From assembly GCF_014279815.1 (NCBI RefSeq), contig NZ_CP047941.1, positions 2,046,001 to 2,110,000 on the forward strand: a stretch of DNA of 64,000 nt, in the 5' to 3' direction. Made by a program: the position numbers and the translations under genes. Shown here in pieces: positions 7,820-49,759 of this stretch. Source of the DNA: Synechococcus sp. NOUM97013 (GTDB lineage Bacteria; Cyanobacteriota; Cyanobacteriia; PCC-6307; Cyanobiaceae). How positions within the stretch are numbered: the first letter of the stretch is position 1; each line of letters starts with the position of its first letter. The notes below the pieces were generated by a model. That model did no database searches. It saw nothing but the letters and a program-made list of their open reading frames with translations, and was not told the origin of the DNA.

Positions 7820-7842
7820 AAAAGGCGACCTCCGAGATCGCC
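7818..7842 (-). terminator. Terminator of the tmRNA gene
   Basis: On the minus strand GGCGA (7842-7838) pairs with TCGCC (7828-7824), extended by wobble pairs, and six T follow (7823-7818). It sits at the 3' end of the tmRNA coding piece. Confidence 0.7.
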
Positions 7843-8131
7843 TGTCCTGGAATGTTTGAGGGGGCCTTCCAGCCCCCGCGGGTCAATTGGGTGATAAGGC
7901 TGACCTCACCCCATCTCCCTTATTGGGTCAGGCAGCAACAGGGGCTGCTTGACGGGAGAAACGAACGATGTTGTTCGCAGTTACGGGTTTGCTCTCACCG
8001 AGCAGGCTTCAGTCACCCTCCTCATGCCCCGTCGAAACCATTGCAGCCCCATGAGGGGGGAATGGAGCTGAGCGGAATCGAACCGCTGTCCGAAACACTG
8101 GTGTGGATCACCTAGTCCGGAAAACCGGACC
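7843..8131 (-). ncRNA. ssrA: tmRNA, permuted two-piece form
   Basis: The two halves are in swapped order on the minus strand. First comes the acceptor piece: its T arm and 3' end read GCGGTTCGATTCCGCTCAGC and then TCCA, with the encoded CCA at 8065-8063. A spacer of 12 bases (8062-8051) follows, then the coding piece, which begins GGGGCTGCAATGGTTTCGAC at 8050. The tag frame is codons 7978-7931, ANNIVRFSRQAAPVAA, with a TGA stop at 7930-7928. This is the marine Synechococcus tag. The molecule rescues stalled ribosomes and marks the product for Clp proteases. Outer ends are approximate: a GTCCGG/CCGGAC hairpin at 8115-8130 marks the 5' side and the terminator at 7842 the 3' side. Confidence 0.93.
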
Positions 8132-8170
8132 CTGTCATTCTGACAGCAGTGGAGACCGGGAGCACAGCCG

Positions 8171-42469: not shown

Positions 42470-43891
42470 ATGCGCCCACGACCCCGTCCTCTGAAAGCAG
42501 GAGTCACCACAGCATCAGCGCTGTCGTTCTTGCTGTTGAGCTGCAGCCAGCCAGGGACGGTGGTGGGTCGAGGGGGCGAACCACTGGCGATGCCCAATGG
42601 CATCACGCTGCACTTCAACCATCGCGACAGCAACCGCTACCGCCATCCGCTGACGGGGAAATGGCGCAATGGCGATGACCTCGAACAAGCCTTGATCGCG
42701 CAGATCGAAAGTGCAGAGCAGGAACTGCTGGTGGCTGTTCAGGAGCTTTCATTGCCCGCCATTGCCGATGCGCTGGTGCAGGCCAGCCAGAACGGAGTGA
42801 AGGTTCACGTGGTTCTGGAGAACACCTACAGCACCCCCTGGACTGAGCTGCACCCCACAGACCTGCCCGCCCACGGCCGTCAACGCCTGCATCAACTCCA
42901 GACACTCGCCGATCGCAACCGTGACGGCACACTGAGCGCTGAAGAACGACTCCACGGTGACGCGGTCGCCATCCTGAGGCGCGGCGGCGTGCCGACCATC
43001 GATGACACCGAAGACGGCAGTCGTGGAAGCGGCCTGATGCACCACAAATTCATGGTGGTGGACCGACGGCGTGTCGTGACAGGAAGCGCCAACTTCACCA
43101 GTTCGGGATTGCACGGCGATGCCGGGGCACCCCAAACCCGGGGCAACGTGAATCATCTGCTGAGCATCGACAGCGCAGAACTGGCGGCGGTGTTCCGCGA
43201 AGAGTTCGAACAGATGTGGGGTGACGGACCCTCAGGGCAGAAGGACAGCCGCTTCGGTCGAGGGAAAGAGAGTCGACCTCTTCAGACCGTGCACCACGAC
43301 GACATCAGGATCGATGTGCTGTTCCCACCGCACTCCCCAAAGGATGCAGACCATGGCTTGAACCTGATTGGCCGAATACTGGACACGGCACAACAAACCA
43401 TCGACATGGCTTTGTTCGTGTTCTCAGCGCAGTCACTGACCAACGTCCTGGCTGAACGCCAAGACGCAGGCGTGGGAATCCGCTTGCTGGCTGATCCCGG
43501 CTTTGCCAGCCGCTCCTTTTCGGAGGTTCTGGACCTGCTGGGTCTGGCGCTGCCCGACCGTTTCTGCAAGCTCGAAGCCGGCAATCAACCCCTGACCACT
43601 CCGATCAAGGGCATCGGCACCCCCCGCCTCGCCCGCGGCGACAAGCTCCACCACAAGTTCGCCGTCATTGATCACAAAACAGTGATCACAGGATCCTTCA
43701 ACTGGTCGCCCTCAGCTGCTCACACCAACGATGAAACCCTGCTGGTGATTCACTCACCCAAGCTTGCCGCGCATTTCACCCGTGAAATGAATCGCCTCTG
43801 GCGAGGTGCTGAACTGGGCATCAATGCGCGCATTCGCAAAAAACTTGAACGGCAACGGATCCGCTGCGGAGATGGAGTGGAGAGGGGTTAA
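42470..43891 (+). CDS. Phospholipase D-like lipoprotein (two HKD motifs)
   Basis: 473 residues. The signal peptide ends in a lipobox (SFLLLSCSQPG). There are two PLD catalytic motifs: HHKFMVVDRRRVVTGSANFT near residue 190 and HHKFAVIDHKTVITGSFNWS near residue 400. Between them is an EF-hand-like DRNRDGTLSAEE. It is probably a periplasmic phosphodiesterase or nuclease of the PLD superfamily, substrate unknown. Its last 260 bases are duplicated at 49461-49759, with 122 bases identical (43631-43752). The genomic island therefore seems to have inserted in the 3' part of this gene and rebuilt its end. Confidence 0.85.
   Translation: MRPRPRPLKAGVTTASALSFLLLSCSQPGTVVGRGGEPLAMPNGITLHFNHRDSNRYRHPLTGKWRNGDDLEQALIAQIESAEQELLVAVQELSLPAIADALVQASQNGVKVHVVLENTYSTPWTELHPTDLPAHGRQRLHQLQTLADRNRDGTLSAEERLHGDAVAILRRGGVPTIDDTEDGSRGSGLMHHKFMVVDRRRVVTGSANFTSSGLHGDAGAPQTRGNVNHLLSIDSAELAAVFREEFEQMWGDGPSGQKDSRFGRGKESRPLQTVHHDDIRIDVLFPPHSPKDADHGLNLIGRILDTAQQTIDMALFVFSAQSLTNVLAERQDAGVGIRLLADPGFASRSFSEVLDLLGLALPDRFCKLEAGNQPLTTPIKGIGTPRLARGDKLHHKFAVIDHKTVITGSFNWSPSAAHTNDETLLVIHSPKLAAHFTREMNRLWRGAELGINARIRKKLERQRIRCGDGVERG
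43631..43752 (+). repeat. Left 122-bp direct repeat bracketing the island (att-like)
   Basis: These 122 bases, encoding the second HKD motif region of the PLD-like gene, are identical to 49481-49602. Similarity continues more weakly on the 3' side to the gene end. This looks like an attachment duplication generated by integration into a coding gene. Confidence 0.8.
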
Positions 43892-43927
43892 GAGGAGGAG
43901 CAAGTGGCTTGAAAGGTGGCTTAGTGG

Positions 43928-46015
43928 GTGACCACGAAACCCTTGAATGAACCTAAATTCGACCGCAAGCAAGCGCAGTGGCACTCAGTGGATCAACAGA
44001 CCATTAAGGAGCTCTCATCCACTGGACGCCATCAAGAATGCCTACAGGCTTGCCAACAGCTTCTCCAGAGCGAACCCGAAAGCCTAGTTCCGTGGAAGTA
44101 CGCAGGCAAATCACTTCTTGCCCTGGGGCAATTTGAAAAAGCTCAACAGTGCTTAGCCAAAGCTCATCAGATCGACAATAAAGACCCCGAGATCGTCAAA
44201 GACATTGGAAATATATTTAACGCCGTACAAAACGACGCGGAAGCAATAAGACTCTACAAAGAAGCACTTTCAATCGACCAGAATTACGCACCAGCAATTA
44301 ACAACCTTGGCTTGATTGCTAAACAACAGGGCAACTTAGTCGCCGCCGGACAATTAGTTAAAAGAGCATGTGATATTGATCAATCATTCGCCCCATACCA
44401 CATGAATCTGGGCGGCATCTACAAAGACCTCGGCAACCTCGATCAGGCTCTTGCCTCCACTCTCAAATCACTCGAGCTCAATCCTGATAACCCCGATGCC
44501 CTCATCAACCTAGGCGGCATCTACAAAGACCTCGGCAACCTCGATCAGGCTCTTGCCTCCACTCTCAAATCACTCGAGCTCAATCCTGATAACCCCACTG
44601 CCCACATGAACCTGGGCGGCATCTACAAAAACCTCGGCAACCTCGATCAGGCTCTTGCCTCTACTCTCAAATCACTCGAGCTCAATCCTGATAACCCCGA
44701 TGCCCACATGAACCTAGGCGGCATCTACAAAGACCTCGGCAACCTCGATCAGGCTCTTGCCTCCACTCTCAAATCACTCAAGCTCAATCCTGATAACCCA
44801 GATGCCCTAATCAACCTGAGCGGCATCTACAAAGACCTCGGCAACCTCGATCAGGCTCTTGCCTCCACTCTCAAATCACTCGAGCTCAAACCTCGAGGAT
44901 CAGCAGCATTATGCAAACTTGGTCTAATTAAGATGGCACTAGCGCAGACCGAAGAAGCCAAAAAATATCTATTTGACTCGATTGCATGCAACACTCAAGA
45001 GTGCGAAGCGTACTTTGCATTAAGCCAGATAATAGAAACAGCAAAAGACGCAGAGGGACTCATTGAATCCACCAAACAAATCAAAACATCACATCTCACT
45101 CCGAGGACAAGAACATTTATTGAATTTGCACTATCAAACTGTCTCCACAAACTCAAAAAATACGACCAAGCCGCTAAGCACTTGAAGGCAGCAAATTATA
45201 ATAAGCTGACAGTATTTCCGTCCGATGCCAGCAGACTTCAACAAGCAATAGCACTCAGCATTTCACGCTCCGACCCCACCGAAAAATCAGCGATCAATAC
45301 GAATTACGGCAAGGATAGAATTTTTATTATTGGCATGCCCAGAAGCGGCTCCACTCTGTTGGAAACAATATTGAGCATGAATCCAAAGATCAAAGACCTA
45401 GGGGAGAGTAGATCCCTTGAAAAAGCGATAGCAAAGATCCAACAACAGAAAGGATGCAAATCTGATCATCAAGATCTTAATGAGGTATATTCCCAGCTGG
45501 AGCCCATCAACAACACCCAGCACAAATACACAACTGACAAACAATTATACAATTTTATTTACATTAATTGGATTACTGCGCATATGCCTTCAGCCAAGAT
45601 TATTCACTGTCGCAGAAATCCAATGGACAATATCCTTTCGATGTATAGAAGCAATCTGACGACTGGAAATAATTACACCGCAAACCTGGAAGACTCAGCA
45701 AAAGTACTTGTGGCACAGGAGAAAGCAATACAAATTAACAAGAAAAGATATCCTGAAAAAATATTCACTTTTGACTACGACCAATTTGTCAACGCACCCG
45801 AGGACAACCTACGGAAACTTCTAAGATGGCTAGATCTAGATTTCGACGATAACTATCTCCACCCCGAGAAAAGCACGAGAAGCGTCAACACAGCGAGCGT
45901 TATACAAGCCAGGAAGCCAATTAGAAACAAATCAGTAGGCGGATGGAAAAACTACGAAACCCTACTAAAACCTGCGCTTAAACTTATTCAAGAAAGCGGA
46001 GTTAAAATAGACTAA
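43928..46015 (+). CDS. TPR-repeat sulfotransferase
   Basis: 695 residues, GTG start at 43928. Residues about 25-440 are tetratricopeptide repeats. Five of them (159-328) are almost identical 34-residue units of the type LGGIYKDLGNLDQALASTLK. The C-terminal third is a PAPS-dependent sulfotransferase: 5'-phosphosulfate loop FIIGMPRSGSTLLETIL (about 466) and 3'-phosphate motif IIHCRRNPMDNILSMYRSN (about 555). The layout is common in marine picocyanobacterial islands and is thought to modify surface glycans or proteins. Codon use is AT-rich outside the repeats, so it was acquired horizontally. It follows the PLD-like gene by 36 bases. Confidence 0.9.
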   Translation: MTTKPLNEPKFDRKQAQWHSVDQQTIKELSSTGRHQECLQACQQLLQSEPESLVPWKYAGKSLLALGQFEKAQQCLAKAHQIDNKDPEIVKDIGNIFNAVQNDAEAIRLYKEALSIDQNYAPAINNLGLIAKQQGNLVAAGQLVKRACDIDQSFAPYHMNLGGIYKDLGNLDQALASTLKSLELNPDNPDALINLGGIYKDLGNLDQALASTLKSLELNPDNPTAHMNLGGIYKNLGNLDQALASTLKSLELNPDNPDAHMNLGGIYKDLGNLDQALASTLKSLKLNPDNPDALINLSGIYKDLGNLDQALASTLKSLELKPRGSAALCKLGLIKMALAQTEEAKKYLFDSIACNTQECEAYFALSQIIETAKDAEGLIESTKQIKTSHLTPRTRTFIEFALSNCLHKLKKYDQAAKHLKAANYNKLTVFPSDASRLQQAIALSISRSDPTEKSAINTNYGKDRIFIIGMPRSGSTLLETILSMNPKIKDLGESRSLEKAIAKIQQQKGCKSDHQDLNEVYSQLEPINNTQHKYTTDKQLYNFIYINWITAHMPSAKIIHCRRNPMDNILSMYRSNLTTGNNYTANLEDSAKVLVAQEKAIQINKKRYPEKIFTFDYDQFVNAPEDNLRKLLRWLDLDFDDNYLHPEKSTRSVNTASVIQARKPIRNKSVGGWKNYETLLKPALKLIQESGVKID
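44402..44911 (+). repeat. Five tandem 102-bp units (one TPR each)
   Basis: Units begin at 44402, 44504, 44606, 44708 and 44810. They are nearly identical at the DNA level, including synonymous positions (for example GGCGGCATCTACAAAGACCT recurs), which points to recent expansion or gene conversion. Copy number is expected to vary between strains. Confidence 0.93.
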
Positions 46016-46082
46016 AACAATAATTAACCACCCAGCATTACAGAATAATATCCTACTGCGAGCCTTGGTTGGCCATTAGATC

Positions 46083-46346
46083 TCAACGAAACCTTTTCTT
46101 CCTCTCTGAGACATAGAACATTCCTACTGTCTCATTGAGAATGAAATCTATGGATCCATAACGAGAGTTCTTTCTCAGCATCTCCTTGAGCAGAGCCTCA
46201 CTCTTCTTATCTAACTTAATATTCATCGTCTTGGAAAGTGCTTGAAGCACAAATCTTCCATTGCCACCTTTTAATATCCAGACCTTGTCAATCTGGTCTT
46301 GCGCATCAAGACTTCCTGCATCTGACGAAACGCATTTACTTCTCAT
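46083..46346 (-). CDS. Island hypothetical protein, 87 residues
   Basis: The frame from ATG 46346 contains a better-looking core from an internal ATG at 46223. That core reads MNIKLDKKSEALLKEMLRK and SRYGSIDFILNETVGMFYVS, a strand followed by two helices that resembles a ribbon-helix-helix antitoxin-type protein. The resemblance is weak and no toxin partner is evident. It is in the AT-rich island, convergent with the sulfotransferase. Confidence 0.4.
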   Translation of the reverse strand: MRSKCVSSDAGSLDAQDQIDKVWILKGGNGRFVLQALSKTMNIKLDKKSEALLKEMLRKNSRYGSIDFILNETVGMFYVSERKKRFR

Positions 46347-46755
46347 CTATTGAAGGAGACATTCGTAGAGGGGGTCTTAGTGATATACATAGTTCTGAAT
46401 AGAAAAGATTGTGATGTCGGCTGATCATGGATCTAGCTGGACCTATGAGAGTGAAGCCTCTGGCAAAAAGCACACTTGAGTTCTTGAAAACATTTGAATC
46501 TATTTATATGATTTCCACCTTAAAACCAATCACTTTTGAATCAAAAATTACTCCAAAGAGGACTCAAGCGCACTTAAAGCGGAAGCAGTGCGGAGTCAAA
46601 GCTCAATAGCCATGATCCAATCGATTCATACTCAAAGGAGTCTTGAATGTGAATTTCCTATACCTTCACCACTATGTATAAGAGTTTTCAGTCAGAAACA
46701 GTTATGCGTAGCCTGTTGTCATATTCAACTGAGGTGTATTTCTAGGGGATAAGGA
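46347..46755. other. AT-rich stretch with no convincing gene
   Basis: A 60-codon plus-strand frame at 46427-46609 (MDLAGPMRVKPLAKSTLEFL) lacks a ribosome binding site and similarity to anything I know. I otherwise see nothing here. It is probably non-coding or decayed island DNA. Confidence 0.4.
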
Positions 46756-47193
46756 CTACTGGTGCTCATCACCATGGATTCTTCGATTACCCCTGTAAAG
46801 ATGTCTCGGTAGATGCTGTGACCTCCAGAGAGCATCAGAGATGCCCCTCTGAGGTGGAAGGCGAGTAACCCTCTCCTCATCACCACAAGCATCAACAGCC
46901 CCTGGAGAGGGCACCTCTAAGACCTCAGATGTAGGCAGCAGTAGGTGAGCTGCATGCTCCCTCACGAAGTCCAGCAAGGTCGTTGTCATGCCACAGCGAT
47001 GCCACTTGAGCCTCCATCGACCTGGAGATCCTTTCTCAGGATGGAGATGCCCCTTGTGGACGTAGCCAGGGATATGACCGTCGTGTTGACAGTAGGGGCA
47101 CCGAAAGCGATACACCCCACTGTCAGTCTTTCTCCAACCCAGATGCTGCAAGGTCACTGTGAGACCCTGCAGCAGTTGCTCTGGGGAGTGCAT
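46756..47193 (-). CDS. Zinc-ribbon protein, possibly primase-like
   Basis: 145 residues from ATG 47193, preceded by CTGAGGTCTC. RFRCPYCQHDGHIPGYVHKG and RWRLKWHRCGMTTTLLDFVR give a Cys-x2-Cys ... His/Cys pattern with the layout of CHC2-type primase zinc ribbons (compare the T7 primase N terminus). There is no catalytic TOPRIM or polymerase domain, so it is either truncated or a free-standing DNA-binding module. The tail (SQHLPRHLYRGNRRIHG) is basic. It is the last gene of a three-gene minus-strand set. Confidence 0.5.
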   Translation of the reverse strand: MHSPEQLLQGLTVTLQHLGWRKTDSGVYRFRCPYCQHDGHIPGYVHKGHLHPEKGSPGRWRLKWHRCGMTTTLLDFVREHAAHLLLPTSEVLEVPSPGAVDACGDEERVTRLPPQRGISDALWRSQHLPRHLYRGNRRIHGDEHQ

Positions 47194-47204
47194 GAGACCT
47201 CAGG

Positions 47205-47369
47205 TCAAAGACCGAGCTTTACCTTCAGACCCTTGTACTCATCAAGATCAGCCTGAGAAGGGGCAGCCTCCAGATGGTTGGAGATGGCTTCTTCCACAGC
47301 CTCCTGATCGCCATCACTCCAAGTGACACTGAGAAAAACGAGGATTCCAGCCGTCCCCAATCCCCGCAT
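47205..47369 (-). CDS. 54-residue island protein
   Basis: The ATG at 47369 opens 54 codons to TGA 47205-47207. It starts with a hydrophobic segment (MRGLGTAGILVFLSVTW) and continues SDGDQEAVEEAISNHLEAAP, then QADLDEYKGLKVKLGL. The acidic helical second half looks genuinely coding. It overlaps the end of the upstream gene by 56 bases and ends 11 bases before the zinc-ribbon gene. The alternative is the shifted C terminus of the upstream gene. Confidence 0.5.
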   Translation of the reverse strand: MRGLGTAGILVFLSVTWSDGDQEAVEEAISNHLEAAPSQADLDEYKGLKVKLGL

Positions 47370-47706
47370 AATCGCCTGAAATCAAATCATCAAAGAGGCT
47401 CTGGCATTCCCGTTCTTTCAAGACCTCTTCAGAGACATAGTTAATGCACTCCCATTCACTCTTAGGCTGAAGGTTGGGGCTGGTTGTCCACACCTCCATC
47501 TCGCCAGTGGAATTGCAAGGGAAAGAGTTATTCGCTTCAAGAAGCTCGTTCAAAATCAGGGGATCAACGTATTGATGCTCAGGGAGAAAGACATAGCCGC
47601 TGTCGTATTCAGCAGCCATGGACTGGACATAAAAGATTTCAAACTTGGACTTTACAGACATGGATAAGAGTATGCGATTGATGTGGCTTTTCTCGGTGTT
47701 TCTCAC
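47314..47706 (-). CDS. Island hypothetical protein, 130 residues
   Basis: Acidic, soluble protein: FEIFYVQSMAAEYDSGYVFL, PLILNELLEANNSFPCNSTG, VSEEVLKERECQSLFDDLIS. A start at the ATG near 47661 (MSVKSKFEIFYVQ) is likelier than 47706, because a T-rich region precedes it. No family recognised. First of three minus-strand frames that look like one transcript. Confidence 0.5.
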   Translation of the reverse strand: MRNTEKSHINRILLSMSVKSKFEIFYVQSMAAEYDSGYVFLPEHQYVDPLILNELLEANNSFPCNSTGEMEVWTTSPNLQPKSEWECINYVSEEVLKERECQSLFDDLISGDYAGIGDGWNPRFSQCHLE

Positions 47707-48033
47707 CGCTAGGGTTTAGAGACGGTTTATCGTCTTCGCCAGAGCAAACATGCAGTGGCGAGTATTTTATTTTCGGATCGCAGAGAAGGCGTCCTGCCCT
47801 CGTTTCGAAATACATATTATAAGGCAGTCAGAAACCAGAACTACCTAGAGTGCGCACTTCATCTTTACAGCATATTTAGACATAAAAATCAGTTCATATA
47901 AACCAGTTATACCAATGGCTCTGGAGCATGAAACCAGCAATCTCAAGCCCCCTGATATAGCCCCAAAAATTGGCACACACCCTGCCTTAAAAGCGAGCAG
48001 AAGCACCCTCCAGGAGGAGGACTAATCAAATCA
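47707..48033. other. Intergenic island DNA, nothing firm
   Basis: It contains only a 36-codon plus-strand frame (47915-48025, MALEHETSNLKPPDIAPKIG) that may be chance, and AT-rich stretches that could hold the promoter of the minus-strand genes below 47706. No RNA structure stood out. Confidence 0.35.
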
Positions 48034-48201
48034 TTAGCGGCTCATCTTATCTCGCTTACACTCCTGCTGATGCCTTCTATAGATCTTGGCTGAATACAAA
48101 CCAAGGACACCCTCCATAGAGCAGGCAATGACGTCTCCGCAATGAGGGCATCTGAATTTCTCCCTGCTTTCCTCAATCTACTGATGCTTGCTCTGACTCA
48201 C
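48034..48201 (-). pseudogene. Small zinc-finger gene with one in-frame TAG
   Basis: A GTG at 48199-48201 overlaps the integrase stop by one base. It opens 55 codons to TAA 48034-48036, interrupted only at codon 8 by TAG (48178-48180). After the stop it reads IEESREKFRCPHCGDVIACS and then IYRRHQQECKRDKMSR. The FRCPHCG...C pattern plus His-x4-Cys suggests a Cys/His zinc finger, as in proteins that accompany integrases. There is no later good start, so it is a pseudogene unless the TAG is read through. Confidence 0.55.
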
Positions 48202-49262
48202 TATTTCGGCACCTTGACCCGTCCCGTTGGCTTCGCATAGGTCCTGAGCAGCTCCCCCGTGCGATGTCCTGCAACTGCTGCCAAATCAGCGGGGCTATTC
48301 TCCAGTGCCAGGGCATGATTCAGAAACGAGTGCTTTTGGGCATACAGACGCCTTGGAGCTAATCCCACACGTCGCTGCGAGCGCTTCCAGACCTTCTCTA
48401 ACCCTGAGTCATACAGATGCCCATGGGTCCTTGGCGTCACAAACACCAAGCCATCTTTCGTGTTCAGTCCCAGGCACTGCATGGTCTCTCTGTGCTTCCT
48501 CAGCACCTCAACGACCTGCTGACCTAACGGCACCACCCGAGCCTTGCCTGTCTTGGTGCCTGACCAAAGTCTTAGATGCGTAGCAGTGCCATCACGCCTC
48601 AACGTCTTGCTGATCAGCAGCTCCCCTTCATCCAGGCGCACACAGTCCTAGGTCAGACCAATCACTTCTGCATTCCTGAGCCCTGTGCTCAACCACAGGG
48701 CAAAGCAGGGGTAAAACCACTCCTCATTGCTTGTGAGATCGTCCAGCACTTTCTTGATCTCCTCCCGACTAAGTACTTCCTCTTCCACTGACCTTGCTGG
48801 CACCTTCACCTGGACCAACCGCAATGCCTTATTGCCTGGTTGCACAGATCGAATCGTGCTGAGGATCCTGGACTGAGTGGATGCAGCCAAACCCTCTGCC
48901 TTCATCCATGCAAGGAAGCGATCAACCTGGGCTCTGGTCCTGATCGGCAAGCCAAACCTCTTCGCTTACCGATAGGCATGAGTGACCCTTGCCTGCTTCT
49001 TCTCCTCTGCCAGTGACCTAAGAGCATCGAGCAAATCCTGATCTCGACCCTCCACCAGTGGGCGATATCGATTCAGAGCTAGGTCTAAATCGCCCTGCTG
49101 GGCATCCCGCCAGATCTCAGCGCAGATGGCTTGTGCCCTGGCTTGGGCGACTGGATCTTCAAAACGACCAGGGCGATTGATGAAATGGTCCCGCCCATCG
49201 AGCCTCAACCTGACTTGGAGAGCACCGTTGTTGTCCCTCACCCTCGGCGGCTTCTTCAGCAT
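48201..49262 (-). pseudogene. Tyrosine recombinase (integrase) with two in-frame stops
   Basis: One reading frame of 353 codons from ATG 49262, broken only by TAA at 48966-48968 and TAG at 48648-48650; no frameshift. N-terminal arm and core-binding part: LRLDGRDHFINRPGRFEDPV and RTRAQVDRFLAWMKAEGLAA. Catalytic part: LWLSTGLRNAEVIGLT (first Arg), then after the TAG DCVRLDEGELLISKTLRRDG and GKARVVPLGQQVVEVL. Box II reads YAQKHSFLNHALALENSPAD, with Lys where the second Arg is expected, and AGHRTGELLRTYAKPTGR has the His-Arg and Tyr. The TAG probably replaces a Trp codon. It sits beside the right att-like repeat. Confidence 0.85.
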
Positions 49263-49460
49263 CCCTCTCCCCTACATGGGATTCGGGCTTAGAGCTGACA
49301 CCCTCAAAAGCCAAGCCAGATCCATTATTTAGTAGCCCTTCGTAGCCCTAGGGCGTCTCATCACGAGATCCAGCGCCTTTCTGGCCTGGGTATTGGCTTA
49401 TGGGCGCGGGAGAGTCCTGAGCGCCCCTGAGCGGTTCCTTCAAAAACACTGCACATCAAT

Positions 49461-49759
49461 GCATCGGCACACCAAGACTGGCCCGCGGCGACAAGCTCCA
49501 CCACAAGTTCGCCGTCATTGATCACAAAACAGTGATCACAGGATCCTTCAACTGGTCGCCCTCAGCTGCTCACACCAACGATGAAACCCTGCTGGTGATT
49601 CATTCACCCCAACTCGCCAAACACTTCACCCGAGAGATGGATCGTCTCTGGCGAGGGGCGGAACTGGGCGTCAATTCGCGCATTCGCAAAAAACTTGAAC
49701 GGCAACGCGCCAAGTGCGGCAGTGGAGAGCAAAGGCCAGCAATCACCTCAGATTCATGA
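49461..49759 (+). pseudogene. Detached 3' fragment of the PLD-like gene
   Basis: It encodes the last HKD motif (HHKFAVIDHKTVITGSFNWS) and the C terminus, without the rest of the protein. 49481-49602 is identical to the intact gene. The region after it matches with many substitutions (for example SPQLAKHFTREMDRLWRGAE). It is most simply the original gene end, displaced when the island integrated. Confidence 0.8.
49481..49602 (+). repeat. Right 122-bp direct repeat bracketing the island
   Basis: Identical to 43631-43752. It marks the right boundary of the integrated element, about 220 bases from the integrase start. Confidence 0.8.

Follow-up and report, generated by a model that had tools for sequence, protein, structure and literature searches.

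The DNA considered here is a stretch of 64,000 nucleotides from Synechococcus sp. NOUM97013 (contig NZ_CP047941.1, positions 2,046,001 to 2,110,000; hereafter the window, to which all positions refer unless a locus is named), in which two copies of the 3' end of a phospholipase D-like (PLD) gene enclose an island carrying a tyrosine integrase. This island is an integrated element rather than the product of a gene duplication, and the interval is very probably the relic of an integrative element whose own attachment site (attP) restored the PLD gene into which it had inserted. Furthermore, related islands seem to have replaced the ends of their target genes so often that the ends of the PLD gene and of a methylpurine-DNA glycosylase gene no longer track the relatedness of their hosts. 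The features of the duplicated gene end are as follows.

42470 to 43891, plus strand: PLD-like gene, the integration target, taken to be native up to the crossover core (below) and element-derived from the core to the stop
43611 to 43885, plus strand: left copy of the 275-nucleotide repeat (attL region)
43631 to 43752, plus strand: 122-bp identical block, left copy
49461 to 49735, plus strand: right copy of the 275-nucleotide repeat (attR region)
49481 to 49602, plus strand: 122-bp identical block, right copy
49513 to 49759, plus strand: displaced native 3' end of the PLD gene

The PLD-like open reading frame (ORF; 473 amino acids, with two PLDc_2 stretches in Pfam) has its 3' end repeated at an offset of 5,850 bp, and these two copies are the only ones found in the whole genome. 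The full repeat is ungapped and 88% identical, and within it about 20 nucleotides of diverged homology precede the longest identical run, of 122 bp. Beyond this block the left and right copies are 83% identical over 107 nucleotides, 42.5% over the last 40 nucleotides of the coding end and 33% downstream; because the flanks diverge in this way, the identical stretch is far beyond chance. In the right copy the PLD frame is open from about codon 378 to a stop of its own, but without a gene start. Between the copies, the island (43893-49460) has a G+C content of 48.0%, as against 60.5% and 59.4% in the left and right flanks, and the integrase gene (48201-49262) lies beside the right copy. An earlier note on this DNA, made from the sequence alone, had described the 122-bp duplication, the difference between the copies outside it and the AT-richer DNA with its integrase, and was accurate on all three.

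Relatives of the host provide both occupied and empty versions of the locus (genomes and loci are designated by G and L numbers, respectively). Among the 31 genomes of the genus surveyed, 29 possess the PLD gene, the two others being 80 and 63% complete, and 14 of the 29 carry an extra PLD 3' piece. This piece lies downstream on the same contig in 13 genomes (two of these, G002 and G023, being weak cases), and in G017 it adjoins the integrase on a separate contig. Some loci are stacked, with two pieces each in G006 and G015 and five in G009. In the nearest relative of the window, G013 (locus L113), the site is empty and only 246 bp separate the PLD gene from the next conserved gene, while the PLD locus of G024 (L134) is likewise uninterrupted. 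If the PLD 3' end had merely undergone segmental duplication and unrelated genes had afterwards entered the space between the copies, a coding end in two copies would be explained, and the non-functional integrase of the window would cause no difficulty. This explanation is refuted, however, because the uninterrupted loci of G013 and G024 hold a single, native 3' end, and it also leaves unexplained that a PLD fragment adjoins a related integrase in 15 of 15 loci (see below), so that we give it next to no credence. The earlier note had taken both copies in an uninterrupted relative as the mark of duplication; G013 and G024 each carry one.

The same note had proposed that uninterrupted strains be consulted for which of the two ends is native, and the pair of G024 and G022 gives a clear answer. 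The spacing to the next gene is 1.58 kb in both genomes. From the core to +230, G024 and the terminal G022 fragment are identical at 228 of 230 positions, and further downstream at 1224 of 1240, whereas the intact G022 gene, in its 3' part after the core, reaches 81.7% identity to G024. Upstream of the core it is the intact gene that G024 resembles (87%, versus 39.5% for the fragment). Since G024 matches the displaced fragment and not the 3' part of the intact gene, the intact gene bears the end of the element and the fragment is the native end. For the window, the last 40 coding nucleotides of the G013 gene match the right copy at 34 positions and the left copy at 20, and its downstream DNA is 62.9% identical to the right and 44.2% to the left. 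The best matches of the two window tails elsewhere agree weakly with an element-like left and a native-like right end, by margins too small to lean on.

The place of recombination is indicated by comparison of the left and right attachment sites (att pairs) of related islands. The sequence AGTTCGC is common to both copies in 15 of the 18 pairs that cover it, among 21 compared, several pairs deriving from one locus and thus not being independent. On this basis the crossover core would be about 8 bp long and lie within the second catalytic HKD motif.

43655 to 43662, plus strand: inferred core AAGTTCGC, left copy, codons 396-398, corresponding to K-F-A of HHKFAVID
49505 to 49512, plus strand: inferred core, right copy

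The 122-bp block of the window extends 24 nucleotides before and 90 nucleotides past this core. The longest blocks over the core in the other att pairs measure 80 bp (G014) and 50 bp (G126), and otherwise about 10 to 30 bp. Because most other pairs share only such short runs, long identity is not required by the site and a 122-bp core was rejected, in keeping with the earlier note, which had called the block long for a core site. The identity more plausibly arose when, after integration, gene conversion (homologous exchange) acted on the two copies. As a variant of the integration reading, it might have been inherited from attP, had the element last come from a very close relative: a comparable 80-bp block occupies the same place in G014, and the best matches of the window block elsewhere reach 90% at most, so the source may be unsampled. 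Against this variant, both sides of the block differ by at least 17% between the copies, which a recently shared attP should not allow, and the two stops in the integrase suggest an old element; we consider it possible but distinctly the less likely origin.

Of 400 genomes of the family that were searched (E 1e-20), 33 contain relatives of the window integrase. Within the PLD clade, defined as integrases at least 67% identical to that of the window and counted where the N-terminal side is covered (L167 and L174, with only C-terminal pieces, stand outside the count), each of the 15 loci has a PLD 3' fragment at a distance of roughly 200 bp from the start of the integrase, which answers the suggestion in the earlier note that the same att region be sought around other islands. 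Beside the more distant integrases no PLD fragment was found (0 of 13 loci); instead, eight of these loci have a methylpurine-DNA glycosylase 5' fragment, two a uvrA 3' fragment and three neither, one of the last (L168) missing the integrase start. The identities of the fragments are supported by Pfam (Pur_DNA_glyco and UvrA domains). Displaced uvrA 3' ends accompany sister integrases in L189 and L190 (G160 and G268), where the elements are stacked, and in L165 (G275); L189 has two elements in its stack, each accompanied by a displaced uvrA end, and past them a whole uvrA gene. Displaced glycosylase 5' parts accompany those in L182, L183, L184, L185, L187 and L188 (G360, G005, G152, G160, G013 and G194, respectively), where the element appears to supply a new gene start. 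In a tree of 23 integrases every target group falls on one side of a branch, with one change each, and the branch supports are 100/100 for PLD, 95/92 for uvrA and 77/75 for the glycosylase, the row G006C10 (at a contig edge and beside a different part of the glycosylase gene) being counted with the glycosylase group. The G266 integrase falls beside the PLD rows. A 51-bp repeat of 96% identity (L181, 8780-8830 and 2181-2231) adjoins this integrase and may mark a fourth target.

The consequence of repeated integration is apparent in the ancestry of the target genes. Pairwise divergence in successive parts of the PLD gene was correlated with that of the upstream neighbor gene across 28 genomes. 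Codons 100-380 follow host divergence closely (r=0.90), in contrast to codons 395-470 (r=0.44), a value below those of all 200 upstream segments of the same size (minimum 0.817). In 20-codon segments, r declines from 0.63 (codons 368-387) to 0.24 (380-399) and then stays at about 0.17; the step falls at codons 376-399, so that host signal begins to be lost at the core. The drop is also seen at third codon positions, and in 20 genomes r was at least 0.716 in 38 segments of two neighboring genes, as against 0.498 for the PLD end. The effect is present in genomes without a detected fragment (n=14; 0.88 versus 0.58) and in those with fragments (n=14; 0.95 versus 0.32). As genome pairs are not independent, no p-value is given; on subsampling 18 of the 28 genomes 300 times, the difference in r was always at least 0.25. 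The glycosylase gene (27 genomes) presents the mirror image, with r=0.31 for codons 1-76 and r=0.80 for codons 84-188, the motif YGIHHC lying at codon 77. In uvrA, r is 0.68-0.86 in five segments, lowest in the C-terminal one, and no displaced uvrA end was found in this genus among the matches listed. Since the host signal is lost there, the element-side ends of the PLD and glycosylase genes have probably been exchanged among species in repeated rounds.

Homologous recombination or natural transformation might alternatively have moved PLD 3' ends, with the integrase a mere passenger, and some homologous exchange is indeed needed to explain the mosaic ends of G006 and the window and the identical tracts of 122 and 80 bp. 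Such a process would not, however, be expected to begin sharply at the core, to leave fragments beside a clade-specific integrase and arm-like repeats, or to recur in mirror image at the 5' end of another gene with an integrase clade of its own; moreover, uvrA of the same genus, where no element is seen among the matches listed, has no such step. We therefore regard this alternative as improbable.

In addition to the core, the islands contain paired hexamers that look like integrase arm sites.

43905 to 43922, plus strand: putative P' arm site TGGCTTGAAAGGTGGCTT, directly after the stop of the left gene
49127 to 49144, plus strand: match to TGGCTT-N6-TGGCTT within the integrase gene
49382 to 49399, plus strand: putative P arm site, TGGCCT-N6-TGGCTT, 1 mismatch

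The aligned relatives retain AAGCCA and TGGCTT copies between integrase and core, and TGGCTT-N6-TGGCTT follows the left gene of the window. With at most one mismatch, the motif follows the intact gene in G000, G028, G017, G006 and G022 (overlapping the gene end in G022). It is lacking at seven right-hand fragments of PLD-clade elements, where the mismatches number 5 in G000, 7 in G017, 6 in G014, 4 in G022, 5 at the second fragment of G006, 4 at the second fragment of G015 and 3 in G034, while a perfect copy is present at the first fragment of G006 and at that of G284, each of which forms the left end of a further element. At the same tolerance the motif occurred in none of 5,000 random 80-mers; the three matches in the window are all in the island (0.2 per shuffle), and control loci yielded 5 in 372,176 bases. 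Similar TGGCTT-type pairs adjoin the glycosylase and uvrA att sites. In Prochlorococcus sp. MIT 0701 a perfect paired motif follows the PLD gene (L045, 11357-11386), and a search of 10 kb showed no displaced fragment; this may be a relic, or the right end may lie farther away.

Taken together, these features are those expected of gene-restoring integration of the kind known from e14 and icd, in that the integrase stands at the edge of the element, relatives hold an uninterrupted chromosomal site (attB) and the native end is displaced. We propose that recombination between an attP, on a circular form of the element, and an attB within the PLD gene was carried out by a lambda-type tyrosine integrase, strand exchange occurring at the roughly 8 bp of the core, within codons of the second HKD motif. 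Along attP would have come first the integrase, then arm sites, the core, a substitute 3' coding end for PLD (about 240 bp, with a stop of its own) and more arm sites. Integration would thereby complete a PLD frame with the end of the element, and the native end, deprived of its gene start, would be left beyond the island. Other protein genes would be used likewise by the same integrase family.

Several observations weigh against this scheme. From where the block ends to roughly codon 467, G013 is nearer to the left copy (73.8%) than to the right (61.7%), and in G006 the post-core sequence of the empty relative agrees better with the left gene (93.9%) than with the terminal fragment (81.7%), although the DNA downstream of that fragment agrees with the empty relative at 96.4%. 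The simple one-crossover picture consequently fails in detail at two of three tested loci. Three of the 18 att pairs, those of G034 and G007 and one of G284 (whose integrase is only a piece), differ inside AAGTTCGC, and a G229 fragment reads AAGCTCGC at the core. The arm motif follows the intact gene in only 5 of the 8 genus genomes with the clade, and not in G014, G015 or G009. Finally, no circular or viral form of the element was found in phage, plasmid and IMG/VR comparisons: IMG/VR contained no relative of the window integrase and, for the PLD tail, only 13 loci of 40-56% identity over short stretches. A phage or plasmid carrier was rejected, the integrase relatives there all being less than 60% identical and mostly partial. 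The mosaic ends of the window and G006 may reflect exchange between the copies after integration, and because such mosaicism blurs the comparison with G013 alone, the G024/G022 pair was used to identify the native end. The assignment in the earlier note of an element-derived end to the left gene and the native end to the right fragment accordingly holds in kind, cleanly so for G024 and G022, but not base for base in the mosaic window.

The remainder of the island comprises the cargo genes and the integrase.

43928 to 46015, plus strand: cargo gene for a TPR-repeat and sulfotransferase protein of 695 amino acids (Pfam), with relatives at the equivalent position in the G028 and G017 islands
46083 to 46346, minus strand: ORF o87, conserved in the G028, G017 and G284 islands
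46756 to 47193, minus strand: ORF o145, Cys-rich and zinc-ribbon-like, conserved in sister elements, the G017 homologue having weak zinc-ribbon matches
47314 to 47706, minus strand: ORF o130, conserved in G028 and G017
48201 to 49262, minus strand: tyrosine integrase pseudogene, with TAA and TAG in frame and RH changed to KH at a conserved Arg; intact relatives exist

The integrase is broken, two in-frame stops splitting it into three ORF pieces, the C-terminal of which matches Pfam Phage_integrase (1.5e-6). It reads LYAQKHSF where all eight aligned relatives have QRH, an invariant column, and the replaced Arg is presumably the second catalytic arginine of the tyrosine integrase family. Intact PLD-clade integrases occupy the equivalent place in G017, G028, G014, G022 and G006. 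A Pfam scan of the island ORFs revealed only TPR, sulfotransferase and integrase domains and no virion or packaging genes. Integration at a tRNA was rejected, as no tRNA gene was found near the site.

Within the cargo gene (44296-45009) there are five to six similar TPR units of 102 nucleotides (34 amino acids), several more than 90% identical, and their number may be unstable. PLD 3' pieces also occur far from the PLD gene, in G008 (L143, 7259-7528 and 12494-12763) and G004 (L144, 6507-6725), possibly as transplanted arrays; each G008 piece directly precedes a very large TPR-repeat gene that starts like the cargo gene of the window. Just past the PLD sequences of L115, L116, L127 and L132 (G028, G008, G017 and G014) lies another RND efflux gene, which shares 36-38% identity with the RND gene near the window site. 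Sister elements encode similar proteins of 178-184 amino acids with a histidine-rich FHTHL-like stretch (L184, 8426-8980; L190, 7465-8001), which might act in replication or mobilization; that of L184 has no significant Pfam or NCBIfam family. Elsewhere in the window, the tmRNA gene at 7837-8152 carries an asterisk in the ARAGORN output, which we take to denote a permuted gene.

Events of this kind are already known, since the e14/icd, Rac/ttcA and thaumarchaeal cases have been described. As with e14 and lambdoid prophages in Escherichia coli icd, the insertion is in a protein gene, the element supplies the 3' end and the native end is displaced; e14 displaces a 163-bp 3' piece, leaving a pseudo-icd (PMC6379469), and where an integrase uses a site internal to a gene, as in icd, the identity block may reach about 250 bp, attP carrying the replacement sequence (PMC10111431). 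Unlike the prophage e14, the present island shows no phage structural gene, its target is PLD, and relics of its kind, often in stacks, are frequent both within one genus and outside it. The glycosylase-targeting elements resemble Rac, which integrates at the 5' end of a different gene, ttcA, and changes its N-terminus (PMC6379469). Among thaumarchaeal elements, 14 of 68 mapped lie in the 3'-distal parts of protein genes, and arrays re-use a site (PMC6563490), while tRNA, tmRNA or intergenic sites serve 56.6% of the islands in one database (PMC12884075). The tycheposons of Prochlorococcus are likewise picocyanobacterial islands with a tyrosine recombinase and cargo, but their targets are tRNA genes (as cited in PMC10872708) rather than protein genes. 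Another family of picocyanobacterial tyrosine recombinases, whose clades also follow their targets, adjoins tRNA-Phe or tRNA-Cys (PMC10187409) in place of PLD, glycosylase or uvrA pieces. No paper was recognized as describing integration into PLD, uvrA or glycosylase genes of picocyanobacteria, in a coverage that was partial and leaves absence unproven; what looks new is the integrase family with its set of three targets, together with the break in ancestry that runs through the genus at the crossover.

On balance we lean toward the view that, owing to a single integrase family, picocyanobacteria draw the ends of several core genes from a common pool exchanged horizontally: the second catalytic half of PLD and the first part of the glycosylase behave as mobile domains, and the remainder of either gene descends vertically. 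Changes in core recognition, with the integrase N-terminus and the arm sites conserved, would have given new targets in the PLD HKD motif, the glycosylase YGIHHC motif and the UvrA C-terminus. Gene-restoring integration has so far been known one gene at a time, and the sites that nature provides in dozens of genomes, from empty through single and stacked to decayed, make its long-term effect measurable: beginning at the crossover codon, the host gene loses its vertical signal, in one gene over the 3' end and in another over the 5' end, which cautions against such genes as phylogenetic markers. The related integrases form a set in which change of target specificity can be studied, and their native sites offer attB and attP candidates for the insertion of DNA into marine cyanobacteria.

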